A stretch of DNA of 64,000 nt from NCBI GenBank assembly GCA_028284345.1, contig JANQRY010000010.1:1-64000 (forward strand), in the 5' to 3' direction. Shown piece by piece: positions 94-48,752 of this stretch. The translations under genes were made by a program, and so were the position numbers. Below the pieces are notes generated by a model. That model was not told the origin of the DNA. It was given only the letters and a program-made list of their open reading frames with translations, and ran no database searches. The stretch comes from Hyphococcus sp. (GTDB lineage Bacteria > Pseudomonadota > Alphaproteobacteria > Caulobacterales > Parvularculaceae). Position 1 is the stretch's first letter. The number at the start of each line of letters is the position of its first letter.

Positions 94-462
94 TTTGGAA
101 CCTGACCGCAATGCAGGTGGAATAACCTGCAAAATTACTGACATTAGTACGTCACAAAACAAAACCCCGAGTATCCTCGAAAGAATAAACGAAGTTTGGT
201 TTGTAAACTGAAAAACGTCAGTTGCGGTCGATCCTAAAGCTCCGTCTCCGGAGCTAAAGCCAGGACGCCGCCGCCCACGTTTCTCTTCCTCAGATATTCA
301 ATTGTCAAAGAGCCCGGGCCCATCGGCGTCGCCGCTTCAAAACCCAGCCGACTTAACCCCGCGTTAACGACGTTTAGCCGACAAAAAACCGACACTCCCG
401 AGACCGCCCCAAAGGATCAACCGATCCTGCGGCGGCCGTCCCGGCCGCGTCGGTGAGCGGCG
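94..462 (-). promoter_or_regulatory. rrn operon leader with boxA antitermination site
   Basis: This is non-coding sequence between the rrn promoter and 16S, transcribed leftwards. On the minus strand, positions 312-300 read GCTCTTTGACAAT, which closely matches the boxA element bound by NusB/S10 in ribosomal antitermination complexes. A GC-rich hairpin, GCTCCGGAGACGGAGC, lies near 240-255. The leader is about 360 nt if transcription starts near 455. A CtrA-type box lies inside it (353-368). No credible ORF is present. Confidence 0.75.
353..368 (+). promoter_or_regulatory. CtrA-type box inside the rrn leader
   Basis: Sequence TTAACCCCGCGTTAAC is a perfect match to the CtrA consensus TTAA-N7-TTAAC. 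It lies about 90 nt downstream of the predicted rrn transcription start, an unusual place for an activator site. It could act as a roadblock, serve another promoter, or be a chance match. CtrA is encoded in this same window. Function is inference. Confidence 0.4.
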
Positions 463-28745: not shown

Positions 28746-28766
28746 TTAACTGCGAATTAAAGATTC
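28746..28766 (-). promoter_or_regulatory. CtrA box and GANTC site in the ftsZ promoter region
   Basis: On the minus strand TTAATTCGCAGTTAAC (28760-28745) is a perfect TTAA-N7-TTAAC CtrA box. It is 51 nt upstream of the ftsZ ATG and is abutted by GATTC (28762-28766), a CcrM-type GANTC site. CtrA directly controls ftsZ in Caulobacter. The site here is seen in sequence and its function is inferred. Confidence 0.7.
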
Positions 28767-28788
28767 GTTCAGAACCCTTTCCAAATCG

Positions 28789-28814
28789 TTAACGGGTCAT
28801 TAACGGCGGATTAA
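28789..28814 (-). promoter_or_regulatory. Overlapping CtrA boxes (three TTAA half-sites spaced by 7 nt)
   Basis: Half-sites TTAA at 28789-28792, 28800-28803 and 28811-28814 are each separated by exactly 7 nt, giving two overlapping TTAA-N7-TTAA boxes. The last half-site includes the ftsA stop codon. With the box at 28746 this makes three consensus CtrA sites within 70 bp ahead of ftsZ. Confidence 0.65.
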
Positions 28815-43838: not shown

Positions 43839-44213
43839 TTATTCGTCCGCCAGTTGCACCATGGCGATGGCGTTTTCGATGACATCGCCGTGAGGCGCGA
43901 GATCATGAGGCACAGCCGGCGCCGCCTCGTCGCCGATCATGGCGCTTTTAAATTGTTGCGCCGTCAGCAACGTTTCCGGCGCAGGCGGGCGCAAATCCGT
44001 TGTCGCGCGGGCAACCTTGGCGAGCCGTTCCGGACTTTCGAGATAAGCGATCTCAGCCCGCAACATCTGCACGCGCCGCGCCTCTTCCGCATATTCAGCG
44101 TCGAGCTGCTGCAGCGCTTCCTGCGCGGCGCTGACGGATTCCTCCGCGCTGTAACGACCGGCCACCGCCGCAAGGAAAAGCGCACACAGAAAGATCGACG
44201 TCAAACGGAACAT
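43839..44213 (-). CDS. ftsL: FtsL-like divisome protein
   Basis: Small bitopic protein of 124 aa. A hydrophobic N-terminal span (about residues 3-19) is followed by a predicted coiled coil (EESVSAAQEALQQLDAEYAEEARRVQMLRAEIAYLESPERLAKVA), the pattern of FtsL, which joins FtsB and FtsQ. The motif YLESPERLAKVARA near the end of the coil is characteristic of alphaproteobacterial FtsL. Position between rsmH and ftsI supports the call. It overlaps the rsmH 3' end by 13 nt. The C-terminal 50 residues are Pro/Ala-rich. Confidence 0.88.
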   Translation of the reverse strand: MFRLTSIFLCALFLAAVAGRYSAEESVSAAQEALQQLDAEYAEEARRVQMLRAEIAYLESPERLAKVARATTDLRPPAPETLLTAQQFKSAMIGDEAAPAVPHDLAPHGDVIENAIAMVQLADE

Positions 44214-45220
44214 GATGCTGTGACTCCTTCAAGGTCGGGCAAATCGGCATGGCGGGGCAGTCCGGGGTCGTCCTCGCCGGCGTAAGCAGGCCCGGCGAGG
44301 CGTTCGCCGGCGCGCAGCTTCGCGGACCGGGCGCGCGGGTTTCGGGCGGCCTCTTCAGAGGACGCCGCCATCGCTTTCGACGACAGCAAGCGAAACGTCG
44401 CCGGCGCGTGCGCCTGTTCGGGCCTGTGCCGGGTTGCGCGGGGGCGGTTTTTCGCGCGCGCGGCGAAGAAGCGTTTGACGATTCGGTCTTCGAGCGAGTG
44501 AAACGTCACGACCACGAGGCGCCCGGCCGGTTTCAGCAAACACTCAGCAGCGCGCAAGGCGGCGACAAGCTGGCCAAGTTCGTCATTGACGAAAATGCGC
44601 AGCGCCTGAAAGACGCGCGTCGCCGGGTGAATCTTTGACGGCCCCCGGAGCGGGTTCGCCTGTTCGACGATGGCGGCGAGCGCGCCGGTCGTTTCAATGG
44701 GTTTCGCCTCGCGCGCGGCGACGATGGCGCGGGCGATGCGGGCCGCTTTCTTTTCCTCGCCATAGGCTTTGAAAACGGCGGCAAGCTGACGCGCGTCAGC
44801 GCCGGCGACGACATCCGCCGCATCGGGCTTTTCTCCGTCCATGCGCATGGAAAGCGGCCCGTCATGACGGAACGAGAAACCACGGTCCGCCTCATCAAGC
44901 TGCATGGACGAAACGCCGAGATCGAAGACAACGCCGTCAACGTCTTCGACGCCGCGCGCGCCCAGCGCCTCTTCCATTTCCGCAAACGGGCGATTGATCA
45001 AAACCAGACGCCCGTCATAGTCGCCCGCCCAGTCATTGGCGGCGGCGATGGCGCGCGGGTCCCGATCAAAGGCGTATACGGAGCAATTGGCGGCGTTCAA
45101 TATGGCTTTCGCATAACCGCCGGCGCCGAAGGTCGCATCCACATAGACGCCGCCGTCCTTAACGCCGAGCGCTTTGATCGCTTCGGGCGCCATGACGGGG
45201 ATATGCACCGCCGCGATCAT
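44201..45220 (-). CDS. rsmH: 16S rRNA m4C1402 methyltransferase RsmH (MraW)
   Basis: SAM-dependent methyltransferase acting on C1402 of 16S rRNA, 339 aa. Family strings: HIPVMAPEAIKALGVKDGGVYVDATFGAGGYAKAIL (SAM motif I), VVFDLGVSSMQLDEADRGFSFRHDGPLSMRMD, and LVVVTFHSLEDRIVKRFF near 245. The C-terminal tail is Arg/Ala-rich. The ATG overlaps the mraZ stop (ATGA at 45217-45220). Second gene of dcw in the standard order. Confidence 0.97.
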   Translation of the reverse strand: MIAAVHIPVMAPEAIKALGVKDGGVYVDATFGAGGYAKAILNAANCSVYAFDRDPRAIAAANDWAGDYDGRLVLINRPFAEMEEALGARGVEDVDGVVFDLGVSSMQLDEADRGFSFRHDGPLSMRMDGEKPDAADVVAGADARQLAAVFKAYGEEKKAARIARAIVAAREAKPIETTGALAAIVEQANPLRGPSKIHPATRVFQALRIFVNDELGQLVAALRAAECLLKPAGRLVVVTFHSLEDRIVKRFFAARAKNRPRATRHRPEQAHAPATFRLLSSKAMAASSEEAARNPRARSAKLRAGERLAGPAYAGEDDPGLPRHADLPDLEGVTASCSV

Positions 45221-45690
45221 GAGGCGTCGTCCGGCGGGTTCGGCAGATCTTTGCGCGCCGCCGCGGTTTCAGAATCATCGCCGATGGATGCATCGAGCGC
45301 TTCCGGGTTCCAGATCTGGAAAAAATCCATCTGTCCGGAAAACGCCGCCTCGCCGTTGAGATTGGCGTGCTCGCGCAATTCCTGCGGCAGCACAAAGCGG
45401 CCTTCGGAATCCATCGACAGGGAAATGGTTTTGCCGGCGATGCGCTTTTGCAGCAGTTTGCGTTCGTCGGAAAAGCGCGGCAGCGCCATGATGGAGCGCG
45501 TCACGCTTTCGATATAGGCGGGCCCGCCCGCTTCGAGGCAGGGTTCATCCGGAGACGGAATAACATAGATGGTCGTCGATTTTTCGAAATCGAGGACGCG
45601 GCGGAACCGGGCCGGCGTCGCCAGCCGGCCTTTCGCGTCAATCTTGTTCGTGAACGACCCCAAAAAGAGGGTCTCGGCGTCCCGCCGCAT
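45217..45690 (-). CDS. mraZ: Transcriptional regulator MraZ
   Basis: DNA-binding repressor of the dcw operon, 157 aa. Two SpoVT/AbrB-type repeats: LGSFTNKIDAKGRLATPARFR (about residues 10-30) and ISLSMDSEGRFVLPQELREHA (about 90-110), each with the conserved DxxGR core. MraZ forms oligomeric rings and binds tandem TGGGA-type boxes. Such boxes are present 78-102 nt upstream of this gene (45768-45792), consistent with autoregulation. First gene of the cluster. Confidence 0.95.
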   Translation of the reverse strand: MRRDAETLFLGSFTNKIDAKGRLATPARFRRVLDFEKSTTIYVIPSPDEPCLEAGGPAYIESVTRSIMALPRFSDERKLLQKRIAGKTISLSMDSEGRFVLPQELREHANLNGEAAFSGQMDFFQIWNPEALDASIGDDSETAAARKDLPNPPDDAS

Positions 45691-45767
45691 GCGCCTCGTC
45701 TCCGCCCGTCCGCGCGCCCCGAATTGGGCTGCGCCGTCCCTTGCACCGGAAATTTTCCAGTAACGGT

Positions 45768-45792
45768 CGGGATATCATGGGATTTACTGGGA
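45768..45792 (-). promoter_or_regulatory. MraZ operator (three GGGA boxes at 10-bp spacing)
   Basis: On the plus strand CGGGA (45768-45772), TGGGA (45778-45782) and TGGGA (45788-45792) are spaced by exactly 5 nt, giving a 10-bp period. This matches the known MraZ recognition pattern of TGGGN direct repeats separated by 5 nt. It lies upstream of mraZ. The boxes read toward the plus strand, opposite to mraZ transcription. Confidence 0.8.
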
Positions 45793-45851
45793 CGCAAAGG
45801 AATTTACGCCCCACAAGGCCAGAAATTGCGCTGACTTCAGCGTCCATTCCG

Positions 45852-45866
45852 GAACAGAAACGGAAC
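45852..45866. promoter_or_regulatory. Candidate LexA (SOS) box upstream of mraZ
   Basis: GAACAGAAACGGAAC is GAAC-N7-GAAC; on the minus strand it reads GTTC-N7-GTTC, the alphaproteobacterial LexA recognition pattern. It lies between the CtrA box and the MraZ operator. Eight fixed bases make a chance match possible anywhere in 64 kb, but one falling inside this 226-bp regulatory gap is less expected. Confidence 0.45.
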
Positions 45867-45872
45867 ACCGGC

Positions 45873-45877
45873 GAATC
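45873..45877. promoter_or_regulatory. GANTC methylation site upstream of mraZ
   Basis: GAATC is a CcrM-type GANTC site, here in the mraZ upstream region. In Caulobacter such sites couple promoter activity to replication through methylation and GcrA. A single site is weak evidence on its own, but its neighbours are other regulatory motifs. Confidence 0.45.
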
Positions 45878-45905
45878 ATCCACAGGCGACGTCGGCGAAT
45901 GAGCG

Positions 45906-45921
45906 TTAAAAGTGCGTTAAC
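45906..45921 (+). promoter_or_regulatory. CtrA box upstream of mraZ/dcw
   Basis: TTAAAAGTGCGTTAAC is a perfect TTAA-N7-TTAAC match. It lies about 215-230 nt upstream of the mraZ ATG and overlaps the fliJ stop codon (TAA on the minus strand, 45917-45919). It could control the dcw promoter. Confidence 0.65.
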
Positions 45922-46381
45922 GGGCGATCGTTTTTTGCGCCCCGGCCCTGTCGGCAAGGGCTCTTTTCGCAGCAGCATGGGGCGCGGCGCCATCCGCCTC
46001 GAGACGGGCCTCGCGGCGCCGACGCGCCGCCAGCGCGTCCCGCGCATTGATGTCGGCGAGGCGTTCGAGTTTTGCGATCTCGGCAAGCGCTGCGGTGAGT
46101 TTTTCCCGCGCCGCCTCTCCTGCGCCGTCAAGGGCGTTCAGGGTTTTGTTGAGGTTGAAGCGGCGCTCGCGCATGGCCTCGGCGAAGGCGGCAAACGCCG
46201 CGGCGTCCGTCGCGCCCGCTTCCTCGCGCGCCACCGCAGCCGTGATGTTTTCAATTTCAGCTTCCGTCGACGCCCTAGCGCGGTCGACATCGGCGAGATC
46301 GAGGCGCACGGTTTCGGCCTCGGCCCTGGCAATTTTCAGGAGCTTTCCAATACTGTCGGCGCCGCGAAACCGTCCGGTCAT
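45917..46381 (-). CDS. fliJ: FliJ-like flagellar export chaperone
   Basis: Coiled-coil protein of 154 aa. The sequence is almost entirely Ala/Glu/Arg/Leu heptads without glycine or proline breaks, as in FliJ, which escorts export substrates and stimulates the FliI ATPase. Sequence identity to FliJ is weak, so the call rests on coiled coil, length and location. Start assigned to the ATG at 46381, which overlaps the fliI stop (ATGA, 46378-46381), a classic fliI-fliJ junction. Its stop codon lies in a CtrA box. Confidence 0.78.
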   Translation of the reverse strand: MTGRFRGADSIGKLLKIARAEAETVRLDLADVDRARASTEAEIENITAAVAREEAGATDAAAFAAFAEAMRERRFNLNKTLNALDGAGEAAREKLTAALAEIAKLERLADINARDALAARRRREARLEADGAAPHAAAKRALADRAGAQKTIAR

Positions 46382-47721
46382 TGGGGCTCGCCTTTCTCCA
46401 GGATCTCCGCCAGCCTGACAAACGCGTCGTCGGCGGAAACGCACTCCTCAATGTTCTGCGACAAAAATTCTTCCAGTTCGTCATGAATGGCAATCGCGCG
46501 ATCAAGGGTCGGGTCGCCGCCGGCGCGATAGGCGCCGATGCGCACCATCTCGCGCATGTCTTCATAAGAAGACGCCAGCATTTTGACATCGCGCACCAGC
46601 GCGGCGCGCTCATCGCTCAGCGCCCCCGGCATCGACCGCGACACGGACCGCAGGATGTCAACGGCCGGCAGGCGCCCGCGCTCGGCGATGCGCCGGTCAA
46701 GCACGATGTGTCCGTCGAGGGTTGCGCGCGCCGCGTCGGCGATGGGTTCGTCGTGATCGTCGCCTTCGACAAGCACGGAAAAGACGGCGCTGACGGCGCC
46801 GGCCTCGCCATTGTCGGCGCCGGGACCGGCGCGCTCGATCAGCGACGGCAACAGCGAAAACACCGACGGCGTATAGCCCTTGGCCGTGGGCGGTTCGCCG
46901 GCGGCAAGACCGATTTCGCGCTGCGCCTGGGCGACGCGCGTGAGCGAGTCCATGAGGCACAGAACGTCGGCGCCCTCGTCGCGGAAATGCTCCGCCAGGG
47001 TCATGGCGAGATAGGCCGCCTCCCGCCGCACCATCGCCGGCTCGTCCGACGTGGCGACGACGACAACAGAACGGGCGAGCCCGTCCGCGCCCAGATGATC
47101 TTCCAGGAACTCGCGCACCTCCCGGCCCCGTTCGCCGATGAGCGCAATGATCGAAACGTCACTCGCCGTATGGCGCGCAATCATGCCGAGGAGCGCCGAC
47201 TTGCCAACGCCGGCGCCGGAGAAAATCCCGAGCCGCTGGCCAATGCGCGCGGGTGTAAAGACGTCGAGCGCCTTCACGCCGAAGTCGATGGGACCGCCCT
47301 GGCGCGCCCGCTGCTGCGCCGGCGGCGGCCCGGACTTAAGCGAACGCAACCGCGGCCCGCTCGGCAACGGGCCCTTGCCGTCCGCCGGACGGCCAAACCC
47401 ATCGACCACCCGGCCGAGCCAGGCGGCCGACGGCGCGATATGCGCGCCGCCGTTCAAAAACGCCGCGGGCGCGCCGCGGGCGACCCCGGTCAGGGAACCG
47501 AAGGGCAACGCCAACGCGAAGCCTTCCTCGGCGCCGACAATTTCCGCGCGCAGGGGACCGGCCTTCGTTTCGATAGCGACGCGATCGCCAATGGTCAGCG
47601 CAGCGAGACGGTCGTCGATCTCAACGCCAAGCGCGGAGACGCGGCGCACCGCGCCGAAAATAGAAACGGGATCGAAACGGCGCGACGTTTCCATCACTCT
47701 GTTTTGAGACATCGCCGCCAT
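46378..47721 (-). CDS. fliI: Flagellum-specific ATP synthase FliI
   Basis: F1-beta-like ATPase of the flagellar type III export apparatus, 447 aa. Walker A SGAGVGKSALLGM near 165-175, Walker B VLCLMDSLTRVAQAQREIGLAAGEPPTAKGY near 245-275, and the FliI motif LDRRIAERGRLPAVDILRSVSRSMP near 340. Family length is complete. Three ATGs (47721, 47712, 47694) could serve as start; the longest frame is given. Divergent from ctrA across a 329-bp gap, and followed by fliJ. No other flagellar genes are in the window, so they must be elsewhere. Confidence 0.95.
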   Translation of the reverse strand: MAAMSQNRVMETSRRFDPVSIFGAVRRVSALGVEIDDRLAALTIGDRVAIETKAGPLRAEIVGAEEGFALALPFGSLTGVARGAPAAFLNGGAHIAPSAAWLGRVVDGFGRPADGKGPLPSGPRLRSLKSGPPPAQQRARQGGPIDFGVKALDVFTPARIGQRLGIFSGAGVGKSALLGMIARHTASDVSIIALIGERGREVREFLEDHLGADGLARSVVVVATSDEPAMVRREAAYLAMTLAEHFRDEGADVLCLMDSLTRVAQAQREIGLAAGEPPTAKGYTPSVFSLLPSLIERAGPGADNGEAGAVSAVFSVLVEGDDHDEPIADAARATLDGHIVLDRRIAERGRLPAVDILRSVSRSMPGALSDERAALVRDVKMLASSYEDMREMVRIGAYRAGGDPTLDRAIAIHDELEEFLSQNIEECVSADDAFVRLAEILEKGEPQ

Positions 47722-48050
47722 TTTCGCTTAACGCCCGGCCTTCAATTATGAGAATTTCAGCCCGCAGCATTAACCCGGCCTTGCTTAAGCGCGCGTAAAG
47801 AAGGCCCGCGGAAAAATTTTTGAAAAATTTGCATTGCTTAATGACAAGCGCCGCAAATCAACTGTTTATGGCGTTTTATCAGTAAGAGAGATTGTCGCCG
47901 GATTAAAAAACCCGGGCGTTGGGAAGAATGCCAACGACGGCATTAACCAATGTGAAAGCATATCGTCGTTAGCATCGGCGCTGCAAAAATAAAGAAGCGC
48001 GGTTTTCATCGGTTAAGGGGATGCCCCGCGCGCCTGACAGGAGACCGACC
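47722..48050. other. Divergent fliI/ctrA regulatory region
   Basis: A 329-bp AT-richer gap. It contains several isolated TTAA half-sites (for example 47728, 47770, 47785, 47838, 47903, 47943, 48013) but I found no pair at the 7-nt spacing required for a full CtrA box, and no GANTC. A run AAAAATTTTTGAAAAATTT (47812-47830) is an AT-rich dyad. CAGGAGACC just before 48051 is the ctrA ribosome-binding site. Promoters for both genes should lie here. Confidence 0.5.
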
Positions 48051-48752
48051 ATGCGGGTTTTGCTCATCGAGGACGACGGCGCCACCGCCCAGAGCATTGA
48101 GCTGATGCTGAAGTCAGACGGCTTCAATGTGTACACGACCGATCTCGGCGAAGAAGGCGTCGATCTCGGCAAGGTTTATGATTACGACATCATTCTGCTC
48201 GATCTGAACCTGCCGGACATGACCGGGTTCGACGTTCTGAAATCCTTACGCGTGTCGAAAGTGAACACGCCTATCCTGATCCTTACCGGCCAGGGCGACA
48301 TCGAAACGAAAGTGCGCGGCCTCGGCTTCGGCGCCGACGATTATATGACGAAGCCGTTCCACAAGGACGAACTCGTTGCGCGCATCCACGCCATCGTGCG
48401 CCGCTCGAAAGGTCATTCGCAGTCGGTCATCACGACGGGCAAGCTCGTCGTCAATCTCGACGCCAAGACCGTCGAAGTCGCCGGCCAGCGCGTCCACCTC
48501 ACCGGCAAAGAATACCAGATGCTGGAGCTTCTCTCGTTGCGCAAAGGCACGACGCTGACGAAAGAGATGTTCCTCAACCATCTTTATGGCGGCATGGACG
48601 AGCCGGAACTCAAAATCATCGACGTCTTTATCTGCAAACTGCGCAAGAAACTGGCCTCCGCTACCGAAGGCGAACACTATATCGAAACCGTCTGGGGCCG
48701 CGGCTATGTCCTGCGCGACCCGCAGGAAGAAAAAGCAGCCGACGTCGCCTGA
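48051..48752 (+). CDS. ctrA: Cell-cycle master response regulator CtrA
   Basis: OmpR-type response regulator of 233 aa. Its sequence follows Caulobacter CtrA closely: receiver domain with phospho-acceptor Asp51 ([11 protein letters not shown]), acidic pocket EDD at 7-9 and Lys near 103 (TKPFHKDE), then a winged-helix domain with [32 protein letters not shown], the CtrA-specific recognition region. CtrA binds TTAA-N7-TTAA and controls division, motility and DNA methylation genes. The C-terminus ends in DVA, similar to the alanine-ending tail used for ClpXP proteolysis in Caulobacter (AA). Start at 48051 from the CAGGAGACC site; an earlier in-frame start at 48021 lacks one. A terminator follows. 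Confidence 0.97.

Follow-up and report, generated by a model that had tools for sequence, protein, structure and literature searches.

Gene order at the head of the dcw cluster

The gap between fliJ and mraZ in the 64,000-nucleotide stretch of DNA analyzed here (the window) raises the question of which regulators operate where the dcw cluster begins. The first-pass annotation had read this gap as a cell-cycle control region under CtrA. The genes around it are arranged as it described, with fliI, a fliJ-like gene, mraZ, and rsmH following each other on the minus strand. The first dcw gene, mraZ (45217..45690, with its ATG at 45690), is identified by PF02381 (54.2 bits), with the NCBIfam MraZ models scoring below their own cut-offs, and is followed by rsmH (44201-45220; Pfam/NCBIfam check). 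Upstream lie the fliJ-like gene (45917..46378), which matches TIGR02473 with 24.8 bits, below the cut-off of 50.45, and fliI (46378..47721), which matches TIGR01026 with 482 bits, over the cut-off. Beyond fliJ and fliI, the same genome encodes ctrA (48051..48752, plus strand), divergent from fliI and identified by the equivalog model NF045991 (424 bits, cut-off 350); the open reading frame starts from 48021 and the match from its residue 11. Elsewhere in the window, ftsZ, ftsA, and ddl were assigned by Pfam/NCBIfam. The genome also encodes GcrA (PF07750, 174 bits, a model that also matched one archaeal control). No RNA leader was detected by Rfam at 45200-48200 up to an E value of 1.

The gene order ctrA-fliI-fliJ-mraZ spans positions 45217-48752 of the window. 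Among 20 loci (L209-L228), 13 have ctrA upstream of the dcw cluster, and six others are incomplete; in L228, there is no ctrA match within ∼1 kb beyond fliI. Five loci (L214, L215, L224, L225, and L226) have ctrA and mraZ in divergent orientation without a fliI or fliJ match between them, so that ctrA and mraZ may use one common regulatory gap there.

Sets of upstream regions

MraZ searches matched 26 of the 30 nearest genomes, 58 of 62 in the family, and 221 of 249 sampled from the order. No MraZ match was found in 28 of these 249 genomes; the 20 of them among the matches listed all belong to one family, f4 (e.g. G024, G048, and G079), and all 20 have rsmH. In what follows, the own genus refers to Marinicaulis-type Parvularculaceae, and the other four families of the order are named f2-f5. 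For the mraZ upstream regions, we selected from the matches listed, mostly taking one to several per genus. Of 144 genomes taken up, seven were dropped because the MraZ start could not be placed (G210, G039, G085, G090, G120, G181, and G167) and two because the region was too short (G010 and G263), leaving 135 regions, two of which (G183 and G188) have a length below 260 bp. The same-genus set consists of 23 usable regions, two more being too short. A second set, rich in Hyphomicrobiales, comprised 60 loci, five of which were not usable, leaving 55. For the 20 mraZ-less genomes with rsmH, we analyzed the region upstream of rsmH in 19, having left out L404 (G163), where the contig starts.

CtrA box and GANTC upstream of mraZ

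On the minus strand, 216-230 bp upstream of the mraZ ATG, there is a CtrA-type box TTAA-N7-TTAA(C) at 45906..45921. It is an exact match (TTAAAAGTGCGTTAA at 45906-45920, with a C at 45921) and the only one in the fliJ-mraZ gap, and the fliJ stop codon (45917-45919) falls inside it. A motif scan identified a GANTC, the CcrM-type methylation site, at 45873..45877 on the same strand (GAATC; GATTC on the coding strand). Both motifs had been pointed out in the first-pass annotation, as had CtrA boxes at the ftsZ end of the cluster. There, three exact boxes are found between ftsA and ftsZ (28746..28814), and both cluster ends are thus box-bearing.

The window contains five exact CtrA boxes, compared with 0.12 in dinucleotide shuffles. 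In the own genome (3.41 Mb) there is no excess, with 35 exact boxes against 38 for the reversed-pattern control, and at this rate ∼0.0024 exact boxes are expected per 231 bp. A further exact box, TTAACCCCGCGTTAA, is located at window positions 353-367. The window has 91 GANTC sites where 322 are expected, a depletion also known from genomes with a CcrM-type methylase. Because ∼0.33 GANTC are expected per 231 bp at the observed rate, the presence of one in the gap is unremarkable by count, and its conserved register alone is notable.

A comparison with relatives, the check that had been proposed for this reading, showed that both motifs are kept in place within the genus. Among the 23 same-genus regions, the CtrA box is exact in 12, has at most one mismatch in 21, and is missing from two (G002 and G014). 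It starts 53-55 bp upstream of a GTTC-N7-GTTC element in 19 of the 23 regions, and a GANTC is found 9-11 bp upstream of the same element in 18. In 22 same-genus sequences, column identity is 0.82 and 0.89 for the two CtrA half-sites, as opposed to 0.55 for the N7 spacer and 0.54 for other columns, and it is 0.86 for the GANTC. Outside the genus, exact CtrA boxes 100-300 bp upstream were found in 3 of 31 regions from other genera of the family and in 3 of 81 regions from the other four families. When one mismatch is tolerated, these numbers are 10/31 for the other family genera, and 18/21, 5/23, 1/7, and 7/30 for f2, f3, f4, and f5, respectively. All 13 regions of the f2 genus g8 (e.g. L003 and L141) have a conserved TTAA-N7-TAAA, one mismatch from the CtrA box, at a distance of 223-228 bp upstream from the MraZ start motif.

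The idea that the CtrA box is a by-product of the fliJ stop codon was discarded, since a one-mismatch box is kept in G003 and G009, whose mraZ loci (L225 and L226) have no fliI or fliJ match within 3 kb upstream. A candidate DnaA box, TCATCCACA at 45876-45884, one mismatch from TTATNCACA, was also rejected because the window has 13 such words against 11.4 expected.

The CtrA box is ∼110-150 bp upstream of the likely -35/-10 of mraZ (see below), and any action on transcription would therefore have to take place from afar or at a second, distal promoter. Near the GANTC, GATGAT can be read by eye as a -10-like word, and a promoter scan there gave no consensus promoter. The two features looked for in a CcrM/GcrA-type promoter, a GANTC in the promoter and GcrA in the genome, are both present. 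That CtrA binds its box upstream of mraZ appears probable, and predicted CtrA control of mraZ is well supported at the level of sequence by the conserved position of the motifs. The reading of the cluster head as a site of CtrA control holds for the position-conserved CtrA-type box and GANTC within the genus, but it is not the whole story, since there are at least four conserved elements. It missed two of them, a LexA-type box, which is the strongest, and MraZ-type repeats. Its further suggestion, a single regulator that would time the entire 18-kb cluster, is a hypothesis.

A conserved GTTC-N7-GTTC box

The most conserved block in the gap is tGTTCCGTTTCTGTTCCGGAAt (45845..45867, minus strand), with an identity of 0.93 in 22 same-genus sequences. 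Its conservation and its score with a LexA matrix mark it as a predicted LexA/SOS-type operator, with the core GTTC-N7-GTTC at 45852-45866. The word GTTCCRTTTCYGTTCC is found once per genome, always upstream of mraZ, in 16 of 17 same-genus genomes, the exception (G030) showing one mismatch, and in none of the 232 other genomes of the order. In G002 and G014, the GTTC box is kept and the CtrA box is gone.

The same motif precedes SOS genes. An exact GTTC-N7-GTTC, in either orientation, is present in 28 of 29 lexA upstream regions of relatives; in the exception, G011, the match begins inside the gene, and G002, with a partial match, was left out. The recA upstream regions mostly have a one-mismatch form. 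We built a LexA matrix from the lexA and recA boxes, with the own lexA box in and the mraZ box out. According to this matrix, the mraZ site ranks 8 of 92 exact sites in the own genome, within the range of SOS-type genes. Ranks 1-4 are a PA0069-type radical SAM gene, lexA, a site near an imuB-like gene, and an mmcB-like gene, ranks 5-7 are a PHP-domain gene (DNA polymerase III alpha type), an imuB-like polymerase, and YifB/ComM, rank 9 is inside a reading frame, and rank 10 is uvrB. In 16 genomes of f3, the tighter pattern GTTCNNNGTATGTTC has 19 matches, 15 of which are at mraZ. The other four are upstream of a Y-family polymerase gene, a repair-type radical SAM gene, and two DNA polymerase III alpha genes (roughly 280-410 bp upstream in the latter two).

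The bare GTTC-N7-GTTC word shows no enrichment in the own genome (92 against 87 for the reversed word), and the case for a LexA box therefore rests on position and conservation. The LexA consensus from which the identity is deduced is short, and position 10 of the own mraZ box (C) is uncommon among lexA boxes. We favor LexA as the likely binder of the GTTC box; that CtrA and LexA would both change mraZ transcription is less certain than their binding.

Orientation and spacing of the GTTC box

In 68 of the 135 regions, spread over four families, an exact GTTC box was found at a distance of 130-260 bp upstream from the MraZ start motif. All 68 are in the sense orientation, none is antisense, and the reversed-word control gave 0/135. 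The box is present in 22/23 regions of the genus, 18/23 of f3, 20/30 of f5, 6/31 of other family genera, 2/21 of f2, and 0/7 of f4. The 67 regions in which it was not found are thus distributed as 1/23, 5/23, 10/30, 25/31, 19/21, and 7/7, respectively. It was not found in any of the 55 usable mraZ regions of the second set, mostly Hyphomicrobiales loci. Upstream of rsmH in mraZ-less f4 genomes, no sense LexA box was found (0/19) and there was one antisense pair, in L401. Because f4 genomes with mraZ are equally without a LexA box (0/7), this result cannot separate a link of LexA to mraZ from a link to dcw.

Spacing was determined in 56 of the 68 box-bearing genomes, i.e. those with a clear promoter element. 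The distances from the GTTC box to TCCCATGnTATCCC cluster at 63, 74, 84, 95, 105-107, and 115 bp, and the spacing thus changes mostly in steps of about one helical turn. At a period of 10.5 bp, the 31 genus-distance values give a vector length R of 0.72, and the 20 collapsed values one of 0.71. Neighboring periods of 10 and 11 give scores of 0.61-0.68 too, off-comb spacings exist (83, 86-88, 93, and 113), and the kinship of the genomes inflates the statistic, so that nominal p values for phasing are not to be taken at face value. The distance also shifts within genera, by 10 bp in g1 and g3, 12 bp in g25, and 9 bp in g16, with the core promoter unchanged. The possibility that the helical steps reflect the gain of one MraZ repeat was rejected, as the core promoter is fixed while the GTTC distance varies. 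Overall, the box lies roughly 75-130 bp upstream of the inferred transcription start.

Core promoter and MraZ-type repeats

Closest to the gene is a predicted core promoter with MraZ-type boxes (45769..45799, minus strand). It comprises a -35-like CTTTGCG (45793-45799), three TCCC repeats with a 10-bp period (45769-45792), seen both in the sequence and in alignments, and a -10-like TATCCC (45769-45774). The putative transcription start is near 45763. These promoter hexamers were named from the alignment and not from a sigma-70 scan; a scan for sigma-70 promoters and terminators in 45600-46050 found none. The identity of the promoter block is 0.88 in the 22 same-genus sequences. In the f5 genera g21 and g25, a conserved TTAAC lies directly downstream of the MraZ/-10 element.

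The TCCC repeats are probably MraZ's own boxes. In E. coli, MraZ autoregulates the dcw promoter, and its TGGG word is on the opposite strand relative to the repeats of this locus. Of the 135 regions, 106 contain a loose repeat word; these come from all five families but include only 13 of 23 regions of the own genus, where a pattern for two adjacent MraZ repeats finds none in 10 of 23. The f4 genomes with mraZ have the repeat in 7/7 regions by the loose word and in 3/7 by the strict word, and it was found upstream of rsmH in none of the 19 mraZ-less f4 genomes scanned.

A candidate composite promoter

Within the genus, the alignments show four conserved elements in a fixed order, i.e. the predicted CtrA box, GANTC, the GTTC-N7-GTTC box, and the putative core promoter with its 10-bp MraZ-type repeats. 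The reading that we prefer, although with some reserve, is that the fliJ-mraZ gap is a composite dcw promoter region integrating CtrA/CcrM, SOS, and MraZ signals. In this model, MraZ would repress its own promoter by covering the -35/-10, and LexA, bound to the GTTC box on one face of the helix, would alter transcription from the core promoter. Timing by the cell cycle would come from CtrA with CcrM/GcrA, and its place would probably be a second promoter 150-190 bp upstream of the gene. The head of the operon would then receive input both from DNA damage, through LexA cleavage, and from the CtrA cycle.

As to the direction of the LexA effect, a role as upstream activator or helper fits somewhat better than a blocking repressor because of the fixed orientation and helical phasing of the box. 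LexA is reportedly an activator of recA in Rhodobacter. If it were an activator or helper here, SOS would lower dcw expression. A more far-reaching version, which we put forward only tentatively, is that in this alphaproteobacterial order LexA might be a one-face upstream activator or co-regulator of the dcw promoter, and damage might lower the output of the whole operon directly with no dedicated inhibitor like SidA. In Marinicaulis-type genomes, a single promoter near ctrA would combine this with CtrA/CcrM timing.

It is possible, if doubtful, that LexA is a plain repressor at this site. Damage would then derepress a distal promoter, and MraZ would build up and shut the proximal promoter, delaying division. 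Such a scheme agrees with two published observations, i.e. division in E. coli is described as being under negative control by MraZ (PMC8959179) and B. subtilis LexA bound in vitro a site before an mraZ homologue (PMC3998124). Repression is also LexA's normal mode, and the start of a CtrA-driven promoter would lie just upstream of the GTTC box. In g3 and g25, conserved bases flank the box on its upstream side and could be this distal promoter; however, no clear promoter was seen beside the box in the other f3 and f5 alignments. Moreover, a simple road-block would not need phasing to the proximal promoter, which is where the activator/helper reading does better.

Direct repeats with an 11-bp period, in fixed orientation and phase, are typical of OmpR-type activators, and the GTTC box has all of these features. 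We nevertheless consider it unlikely that the box is bound, as an activator site, by an OmpR-type response regulator or another factor recognizing 11-bp direct repeats and not by LexA, as the same GTTC consensus occurs in front of lexA and repair genes of these genomes. Response regulators are known at this operon, since NtrX activates mraZ-mraY in R. sphaeroides and CenR was reported at mraZ without its motif (PMC7240162, PMC9275681). The motifs published for NtrX (GCA-N9-TGC), CenR (TGA-N8-TGA), and Caulobacter ChvI (TTGC-N3-GCAA) are, however, unlike the GTTC box and do not fit it by eye, and these three were rejected as its binders.

Least probable is that mraZ is mainly regulated by CtrA, together with CcrM/GcrA, and that the other conserved elements are ordinary promoter parts: the register of the CtrA box and GANTC within the genus, the one-mismatch box ∼225 bp upstream in 13/13 g8 regions, ctrA upstream of mraZ in 13/20 loci, the three boxes at the ftsZ end, and a CtrA motif predicted upstream of mraZ in S. 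meliloti (PMC3616915) all speak for CtrA, but the GTTC box is more conserved (0.93 versus 0.82-0.89), spans families mostly without an exact CtrA box, and with its single orientation, LexA consensus, and helical phasing is not a generic part.

Under the preferred composite reading, one promoter may join self-regulation, DNA damage, and the timing of the cell cycle. The CtrA reading has support as a component of this larger composite promoter, and the LexA-type box is the part that deserves the attention of specialists. Its fixed orientation and helical spacing amount to a testable prediction on how LexA would work there.

Comparison with known systems

In Caulobacter, small inhibitors account for the arrest of division after DNA damage, namely the SOS-induced SidA (PMC12700426) and the SOS-independent DidA (PMC4211646). 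With a conserved LexA-type site before the operon that comprises most division and cell-wall genes, damage would have a direct route to these genes.

For CtrA, there are precedents both at mraZ and elsewhere in dcw clusters. Sinorhizobium meliloti has a predicted CtrA motif in front of mraZ (PMC3616915, PMC4414408). The likeness lies in the CtrA-type box before mraZ, whereas S. meliloti belongs to another order, its site is a prediction, and the parts of these reports available to us mention no LexA box. CtrA controls ftsZ/ftsQA in Caulobacter and ftsAKQZ in Hyphomonas (PMC7200025). The TTAA-N7-TTAAC motif on dcw genes is shared, but the sites described there are at the far end of the cluster and not at the mraZ head. 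Loss of CckA in Caulobacter raises mraZ and ftsL (PMC12421884), which, if direct, suggests repression.

The MraZ site of Burkholderia cenocepacia consists of four 7-nt repeats with 3-nt spacers, downstream of the -10 (PMC7761207). As in E. coli and B. cenocepacia, there are repeats with a 10-bp period at the mraZ promoter here; unlike those described downstream of the -10, they cover the inferred -35/-10.

CtrA at mraZ has already been predicted elsewhere, and the phased LexA-type box is the new part, within a literature scope that does not prove novelty. Among the matches listed, titles and the opening lines of abstracts showed no report linking LexA to mraZ in alphaproteobacteria. A text search for mraZ did not bring up two Caulobacter SOS papers, in which genes are given as locus tags. 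In R. sphaeroides, NtrX at mraZ-mraY (PMC7240162) is likewise an example of direct regulation at the dcw head, with a different regulator and a different motif. The SOS regulator has also been proposed for mraZ in a study of gut metagenomes, in which B. subtilis LexA bound in vitro to a site found upstream of a homologue of mraZ (PMC3998124). In contrast to the present box, the motif there is presumably of Gram-positive type, and the available part of that report describes no conservation across an alphaproteobacterial order. Finally, GTTC-N7-GTTC is the published alphaproteobacterial LexA/SOS operator, including that of Caulobacter (PMC12700426, PMC7987155). The consensus at mraZ is the same as in these reports and at lexA in the genomes studied here, whereas the target is the dcw operon, approached in one orientation and mostly in helical phase.
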